This document shows, piece after piece, positions 34,958 through 36,259 of a stretch of DNA of 64,000 bases. The stretch covers positions 1,637,001 to 1,701,000 of the forward strand of contig NZ_CP036281.1 of NCBI RefSeq assembly GCF_007750395.1, in the 5' to 3' direction. Within the stretch, counting starts at the first letter, position 1, and every line of letters starts with the position of its first letter. Below the pieces are notes generated by a model. The model saw only the letters and a list, made by a program, of their open reading frames with translations, did not search any database and had not been told where the DNA came from. Origin of the DNA: Polystyrenella longa (GTDB lineage: Bacteria > Planctomycetota > Planctomycetia > Planctomycetales > Planctomycetaceae). The position numbers and the translations under genes are program-made.

Positions 34958-36259
34958 TTATCCATGGTCGTGGTCGTGGTCGTGGTCGTGGTCGTGGTCG
35001 TGGTCGTGATCGTGATCGTGATCGTGATCGTGATCGTGATCGTGATCGTGATCGTGATCGTGAGGCGCAGCGGTGGATTGTACTGGTGATTGAGATTGTG
35101 AAAAGGCGAATTCTGCAGCCCGGTAGACTTCACGTAGCGGCACACTGGCCGATTCGGCTACTTGAGAGCAAGAATCGAACTCGGGTGTAAAGATCGCAGG
35201 TTCGCCATTTCTCCAACCCAGCTTGCCTTGGACGTCACCCCACAAGGTGCTGACAGTATGCGGTTGGCGGGCCCGTTTGGACCTTTCTACCTGGTGTCGC
35301 CGAATTCCAAACGTCCCTGTTTCGGAGAACAGAATATCTTCCAGCTCAGCTGCTTTTTCTGGCATCGCCAGCACAGTTAAAACGACCGCGGGGCGATCTT
35401 TTTTCATCGAAATCGAAGTCGTAAAGACATCAAGAGCACCCGCTTGCATCAATTTCTGACGGGTATGCCCAATGATTTCTCCGGAAACGTCATCCAAGTT
35501 GGTTTCCAGTACGGTGATAAAATCGTGTTCGGGCTGAACGACCGCCTCGCCAATAAACATTCGGAGCAGATTGGCTCGTTGAGGGAAGGTCATGGTTCCG
35601 GCGCCGTAACCGACTGCTTCGATCGTCATCGCGGGCAGGGCACCAAATCGGTCGACGATCGTTTTGACAATTGCTGCGCCTGTCGGGGTCGTCAGCTCCG
35701 CCTCGATGGGAACATCAACCAGCGGAATTCCGCGAAGAATTTCAGCTGTGCCGGGCGTGGGAACAGTGCAGATTCCATGATCAATTTTCACCTGTCCTTG
35801 TCCCGGGGGCAGGGGGCTGCAGACCACTTGATCGAGTCCAAGCAGGTCAAATCCGATGGCAGCACCGACAATGTCGACGATTGAATCGATCGCGCCGACC
35901 TCGTGAAAGTGGATTTTATCGAGCGTCGAACCATGGACGTGGGCTTCGGCTTCGGCCACGACTCGAAAAATGGAGCGAGCCAATTCTTTCTGTGCTGGAC
36001 TGATCGCATCCGCCCGGTCCAGTATTTCATGGATATCGCTCAAATGGCGGTGAGCATGCTGCTCTGGGTGTTTGATTCGGATCGAAGTCGCCCGAAAGCC
36101 CCCTTTAACGACGGTCTCGGTCAGTAACTCGACGCCGGGTAATTGCAAAGAGGCAATGCCGCGACCGAGTTTATCAATAGGGACCCCGACGTCAATCAGG
36201 GCTCCCAAAGTCATGTCGCCACTGATGCCGGTGGAACAATCGAGGTACGCAATTTTCAT
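34958..36259 (-). CDS. larC: LarC-type nickel insertion protein with (His-Asp)16 tail
   Basis: This protein of about 433 residues belongs to the LarC family, which inserts nickel into the pyridinium-dithiocarboxylate (nickel-pincer) cofactor of lactate racemase-type enzymes. It opens KIAYLDCSTGISGDMTLGAL and has the family HFHEVGAIDSIVDIVGAA block and the C-terminal TNLDDVSGEIIGH. It is one continuous frame, unlike LarC of Lactobacillus, which needs a programmed frameshift. The last 34 residues are a tandem (HD)16-H-G run, a probable metal buffer. larB, larE and a racemase are not visible here. The ATG at 36259 is preferred over the TTG one codon upstream. Confidence 0.93.
   Translation of the reverse strand: MKIAYLDCSTGISGDMTLGALIDVGVPIDKLGRGIASLQLPGVELLTETVVKGGFRATSIRIKHPEQHAHRHLSDIHEILDRADAISPAQKELARSIFRVVAEAEAHVHGSTLDKIHFHEVGAIDSIVDIVGAAIGFDLLGLDQVVCSPLPPGQGQVKIDHGICTVPTPGTAEILRGIPLVDVPIEAELTTPTGAAIVKTIVDRFGALPAMTIEAVGYGAGTMTFPQRANLLRMFIGEAVVQPEHDFITVLETNLDDVSGEIIGHTRQKLMQAGALDVFTTSISMKKDRPAVVLTVLAMPEKAAELEDILFSETGTFGIRRHQVERSKRARQPHTVSTLWGDVQGKLGWRNGEPAIFTPEFDSCSQVAESASVPLREVYRAAEFAFSQSQSPVQSTAAPHDHDHDHDHDHDHDHDHDHDHDHDHDHDHDHDHG
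34964..35062 (-). repeat. Hexanucleotide tandem repeat coding for (His-Asp)16-His
   Basis: Thirty-three codons alternate His and Asp. Reading from the stop, seven Asp codons are GAC and the next nine are GAT, in two unbroken blocks; all His codons but the last are CAC. The uniform blocks show expansion by repeat slippage rather than selection on each codon. Confidence 0.95.

Follow-up and report, generated by a model that had tools for sequence, protein, structure and literature searches.

The LarC protein encoded in the genome of Polystyrenella longa ends in an array of sixteen His-Asp dipeptides, and this tail is probably a nickel-holding arm carried by the insertase itself, by analogy with the stretches of His known from HypB and UreG. 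Comparison with the LarC sequences of relatives indicates that the tail is a trait of the whole clade and not a peculiarity of this genome, something that would be invisible if the relatives were not considered.

The gene was found in a window of 64,000 nucleotides (the whole stretch of DNA that was analysed), at positions 34958–36259 of the minus strand, and codes for 433 amino acids from its ATG plus the stop; a TTG located one codon upstream of the ATG starts a 434-aa reading. The initial annotation had called it larC, and the Pfam and NCBI family models agree. The scores were 457.9 bits for PF01969 (curated cut-off 22.1), 206.9 for TIGR00299 (cut-off 90) and 137.9 for NF052512 (cut-off 50), with the Pfam Ni_insertion model matched end to end and the NCBI models for LarC1 and LarC2 matched as well, so that by family-model membership the gene is a larC with fused LarC1 and LarC2. 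The Ni_insertion core occupies 35123–36250 (residues 5–380 of the TTG-start reading). It is followed on the same strand by a segment (35063–35122) containing the end of the last predicted helix and then a linker rich in Ser, Gln, Ala and Pro, and by the tail at 34964–35062, exactly the span that had been annotated. These 99 nt (33 codons) give a C-terminus that reads ...AAP-(HD)16-HG-stop, i.e., a dense and terminal HxH stretch outside the folded core, with 17 His in 33 residues. Tandem Repeats Finder described the array as a 6-bp unit in 16.0 copies with 98% matches. As had been noted before, nearly all the His codons are CAC (16 CAC and one CAT), and the 16 Asp codons are nine GAT and seven GAC. 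The order of the two blocks had been given the wrong way round because the gene lies on the minus strand: in the direction of the protein the nine CAC-GAT units come first (35009–35062), the seven CAC-GAC units come last (34967–35008), and the final His (CAT), a Gly and the TAA stop close the gene (34958–34966).

A search for three consecutive CAYGAY units over the whole 6.1-Mb genome gave 19 matches at five places, 14 of them inside the LarC array and one or two at each of the other four, while the reversed pattern gave zero matches in the same whole-genome search. An ORF on the opposite strand (34876–35190) was rejected as a real gene and considered mechanical, since the GAC/GAT differences are silent in the LarC frame only and the relatives keep His and Asp there. 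A frameshift or assembly artefact was also rejected, given the 6-bp unit and the presence of like in-frame tails in many separately sequenced relatives. Elsewhere in the same genome, locus L317 (1024–1599, plus strand) appears, by reading, to code for an FKBP-type lipoprotein in which GHDHGDGHDHDHDHSD precedes the isomerase part, a His-Asp segment on a protein that looks exported. Within the window, a 144-aa ORF (34449–34883, minus strand) begins 74 nt past the LarC stop; it has no Pfam or NCBIfam match and, by eye, is likely to contain a membrane helix and a coiled coil. Homologues of this ORF, counted with a profile built in rounds at loci that had 500 nt or more of downstream sequence, lie directly after LarC in 51 of 121 loci of the same taxonomic family, 12 of 87 from the rest of the phylum and 24 of 75 of named relatives (the sets overlap). 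The window also includes a retron-like reverse transcriptase gene (37235–38734, plus strand; RVT_1; PADLOC RT_other, 431.7 bits), which scored 196.9 bits with the retron St85 model, under its cut-off of 235, and has a 14-bp repeat (5.6 copies, 37235–37312) just upstream.

The AlphaFold model of the window LarC had a confident core (mean pLDDT 87.3, pTM 0.60, with 312 of the 433 residues at pLDDT of at least 90), and its LarC2 half could be superimposed on 6bwo_A with a TM score of 0.93 by target length and an rmsd of 1.4, as expected for the LarC2 fold. The pLDDT was below 50 at residues 392–426, a value that fits a disordered tail but argues for it weakly, since the rows of the input alignment ended close to where the core ends and gave the tail almost no relatives. 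The known LarC, the nickel pincer cofactor insertase (PF01969; 6bwo/6bwq for LarC2; the PDB 12bi group), has the same fused LarC1 and LarC2 as the window protein. The 12bi group is a relative solved at full length with almost no residues past the core: 12bi_D aligns to the window LarC over residues 1–384 (E 1.2e-87), and the chain was aligned to residue 406 of its 414, leaving eight, whereas the window LarC continues with the 33-residue (HD)16H tail.

LarC is present in 140 of the 150 genomes of the same taxonomic family, and in 117 of the 119 good ones. We read 131 of the 140 loci within the family set and two more (G034 and G074) with the phylum set, seven staying unread (G019, G078, G094, G106, G107, G111 and G115). 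Six of the 131, with a cut end or N (L011, L024, L072, L073, L095 and L111), were left out of the counts; in five of them at least seven His precede the cut, and in L072 HDH can be read ahead of a run of N. Among the 125 complete LarCs, 122 have at least seven His after the core and 124 at least four, with a median of 16 and a range of 0–37. The 17 His of the window protein are thus an ordinary count, exceeded by 53 of the 125, and its pure run of 16 His-Asp units ranks sixth longest among the 131 loci. The two family loci read with the phylum set (L231 and L232) are also tailed. The exceptions are L014, which has lost the tail, and L123 and L016, which keep four and five His, respectively, so that the tail cannot be indispensable; no hidden tail was found for L014 in the three frames downstream, where another gene follows.

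Outside the family we read 87 loci from the 198 other genomes of the phylum with LarC, i.e., the 29 best-scoring and 58 chosen to cover families (one of them, L193, has N in the tail). Only three had a His-rich tail, with 26, 28 and 14 His (L184, L197 and L211, respectively), and the highest count in the remainder was two. The make-up of these three tails is different from that of the family, and they are apparently separate gains. In a set of 80 named relatives, which shares some sequences with the 87 phylum loci, the 13 closest to the window LarC were all tailed (ten of them being the same sequences as in the family set). Beyond this tailed group none of the 66 named LarCs with a complete end reached seven His and one, L272, reached four, which are scattered; L296 is cut inside the core. 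Among the named relatives the closest LarC, 86% identical, comes from a metagenome-assembled genome of Planctomycetaceae, and its sequence does not differ from that of the LarC of the congener G002. A tree was made from 76 LarC cores (36 taken from the 131 loci of the family, 40 from the 87 outside it), and the family LarCs fell on one side of a branch with SH-aLRT 99, many of the inner forks being weak. The fewest tail changes on this tree are five, which we interpret as a single gain within the family, a loss in L014 and three further gains elsewhere. A presence extending over a whole lineage amounts to one evolutionary gain, and therefore the distribution alone cannot tell the purpose of the tail.

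According to PMC11796402, LarC uses CTP to insert nickel into the nickel pincer nucleotide (NPN) cofactor, and homologues of LarA are described in PMC11770544 as very common in Planctomycetota, with a mean of at least two per genome. All 150 family genomes contain the Lar_N domain of LarA, with four matches in that of the window, and LarB and LarE scored over their cut-offs in 41 and 40, respectively, of 41 family genomes. The window genome (G000) matches the LarA, LarB and LarE models. When it was searched at E 0.001 for urease alpha, NiFe hydrogenase and Ni-SOD, none of the three turned up, which leaves LarA as its one detected nickel enzyme among those tested. Over the 41 genomes, urease alpha was detected in seven at E up to 0.001 (five over the cut-off, two of these strong), NiFe hydrogenase in 22 and Ni-SOD in three; set beside these enzymes, the tail follows one clade. 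One family genome that is 99% complete (G028) has no LarC match, yet the LarA, LarB and LarE models match.

In line with the initial annotation, His-rich stretches on nickel insertases are known and have been proposed to be a nickel-holding device (PMC7055735; PMC2770081). In HypB of Bradyrhizobium and Rhizobium the stretch is N-terminal and likewise located on a nickel insertion protein. The review PMC7055735 gives four Ni(II) per monomer for the Rhizobium HypB, with 17 His near the N-terminus, and nine for that of Bradyrhizobium, with 24, and terms the significance of these stretches unknown. There are differences, because HypB is a G3E GTPase for hydrogenase, whereas LarC matches Ni_insertion only and has a C-terminal tail in which His and Asp alternate strictly. 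Membership of LarC in the G3E GTPases (HypB, UreG, COG0523) was rejected, Ni_insertion being the sole Pfam match at E 0.001. UreG and CobW/COG0523 likewise have a His stretch on a metal insertase, although from a protein family different from LarC. In PMC2770081 this addition is proposed to offset a missing metallochaperone, and, with two exceptions, every genome found to be without UreE is said to have a UreG with an added His motif. More generally, His is enriched 33-fold and Asp 2.7-fold in the low-complexity regions of nickel-binding proteins, according to PMC6821194. Klebsiella UreE resembles LarC in having a His-rich C-terminal tail on a nickel protein, but it is a dedicated chaperone. 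Tailless UreE is reportedly still functional, following a truncation study of the Klebsiella protein.

Binding of other metals has to be considered as well. Besides nickel, HypB can bind Zn, Cu, Co, Cd and Mn through its His stretches (PMC7055735), and the other HDHDHD stretches in the window genome belong, by reading, to three exported-looking proteins and one ZIP-like transporter. The tail might then be a general metal sponge or a protection (against Zn, Cu, Co or excess Ni) that is located on LarC by chance and has no role in insertion. We consider this unlikely, since a tail that is found on the nickel insertase in 122 of the 125 family LarCs, and that seems to have been gained separately on LarC in three other lineages, points to the metal of LarC itself.

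The initial annotation had anticipated that the array would change in length, and the LarCs of the family do vary in tail length and unit number between related species. The genome collections used have one genome per species, so that the turnover was compared between species. The tail length differs in nine of the ten pairs with at least 90% core DNA identity and in 41 of the 42 pairs at 85–90%. For example, L125, L126 and L127, at 95.5–96.6% core DNA identity, have 22, 21 and 26 units, while the exception is the pair L082 and L097, with 13 units each at 94.7%. Unit number therefore varies between close relatives, as in a length-variable repeat, and the change of a unit cannot shift the frame because the unit is 6 bp long. 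An exact DNA unit of 6–30 bp is repeated at least three times in a row in 49 of the 131 family tails.

The two codon blocks had been taken to mean two separate hexanucleotide expansions, but by themselves they prove less than that, since a short array with a single silent C/T difference would, after local duplication of units, show the same two blocks. The 16 units of the window array fall into only two runs by type (p ~1.5e-4 against shuffled unit order), and two runs were found in nine of the 18 arrays tested in this way, six with p <0.002 (L009, L010, L090, L103, L107 and L125) and three with p of 0.02–0.05 (L098, L063 and L086). Three more arrays had three or four runs with p <0.006 (L079, L126 and L127), and in the other six the runs were not fewer than in the shuffles (L021, L025, L035, L047, L137 and L038; p 0.24 to 1.0). 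In the congener G002, with a core DNA identity of 74%, the tail is (HD)15-H-G and the order is the opposite, ten GAC and then five GAT. We have therefore discarded the blocks as proof of two expansions; the two-block order is of the kind that local unit duplication produces.

The spacing of the His residues behaves differently from the length. At the His-phase positions of the 125 family tails, His was found in 1401 of 1506 (93%), with both His codons in use, while at the spacer positions between two His Asp was found in 1164 of 1703 (68%), the rest being mostly Ser or Gly. Among the tails that offered three or more positions of both kinds, 85 were more variable at the spacer and 14 less, counts that are not independent because the units are copied and the sequences related. 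The units HD, HDHS, HDHM and HDHG all give the same alternate spacing of His. Maintenance of this spacing over a varying length, as read from the sequences, favours selection rather than idle slippage, since a neutral array would lose His and Asp about alike.

The same pattern bears on the possibility that the tail serves for protein-protein contact, for the control of oligomers or for the solubility of LarC, and not for holding metal. The tail is acidic and C-terminal, and the small downstream gene described above is often directly adjacent to larC and could code for a partner. Nevertheless, the Asp is the variable part and the His the part that is kept, and tails with HSH, HGH and HMH spacers differ in charge, so we give this explanation little credit. 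A neutral microsatellite, prone to slippage and located at the 3' end of the gene, where a free C-terminus would tolerate it, would account for the fast turnover in length, the codon blocks, the exact repeats in the 49 tails and the loss in L014, but is very improbable given that alternate His are kept while spacers and codons change, that units as different as HD, HDHS, HDHM and HDHG encode the same spacing and that the tail has been retained across the family.

In our preferred reading, that of a nickel-holding arm, the tail would have arisen a single time, at the root of this bacterial family, and the alternating His would keep a few Ni(II) close to the active site and then hand them over. 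The insertase would in this way carry its own store and delivery device and would rely less on a separate metallochaperone alone. At the DNA level the array would gain and lose whole 6-bp units, probably by slippage, and its length would drift with no loss of frame, while selection would keep His at every second position. The array may be tunable by slippage, as the initial annotation suggested, and its length may bring a benefit. More tentatively, in a reading that we regard as somewhat doubtful, the NPN pathway would have in this tail its own built-in nickel metallochaperone. It would have arisen at the base of the family and, seemingly, separately in three other lineages, with a capacity set by the number of His-Asp units and with its His spacing guarded by selection.

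Among the matches listed in our literature searches, with the primary LarC papers outside their reach, there was no report of a LarC with a His-rich tail. While His-rich nickel stretches as such were already known, one extending over a whole family on LarC appears to be new in the literature covered, an earlier mention being possible. Similarly, no paper combining "nickel-pincer" and "metallochaperone" was found in a search that included few subscription papers. The LarCs of Lactobacillus, Moorella and Synechocystis are not known to have such a His tail, and their activity speaks against our reading. These three work in assays, as described in PMC11796402, and the E. coli Lar expression system published there could host a comparison of tail versions. 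Nature already provides LarCs with 0 to 37 His, so that a single enzyme would allow the effect to be set against the dose. If the more tentative reading is true, the tail would be a nickel-delivery device for the NPN pathway, where the papers found named none. The tail is also a case in which a composition, His at alternate positions, is held while the DNA sequence and the length are rewritten.
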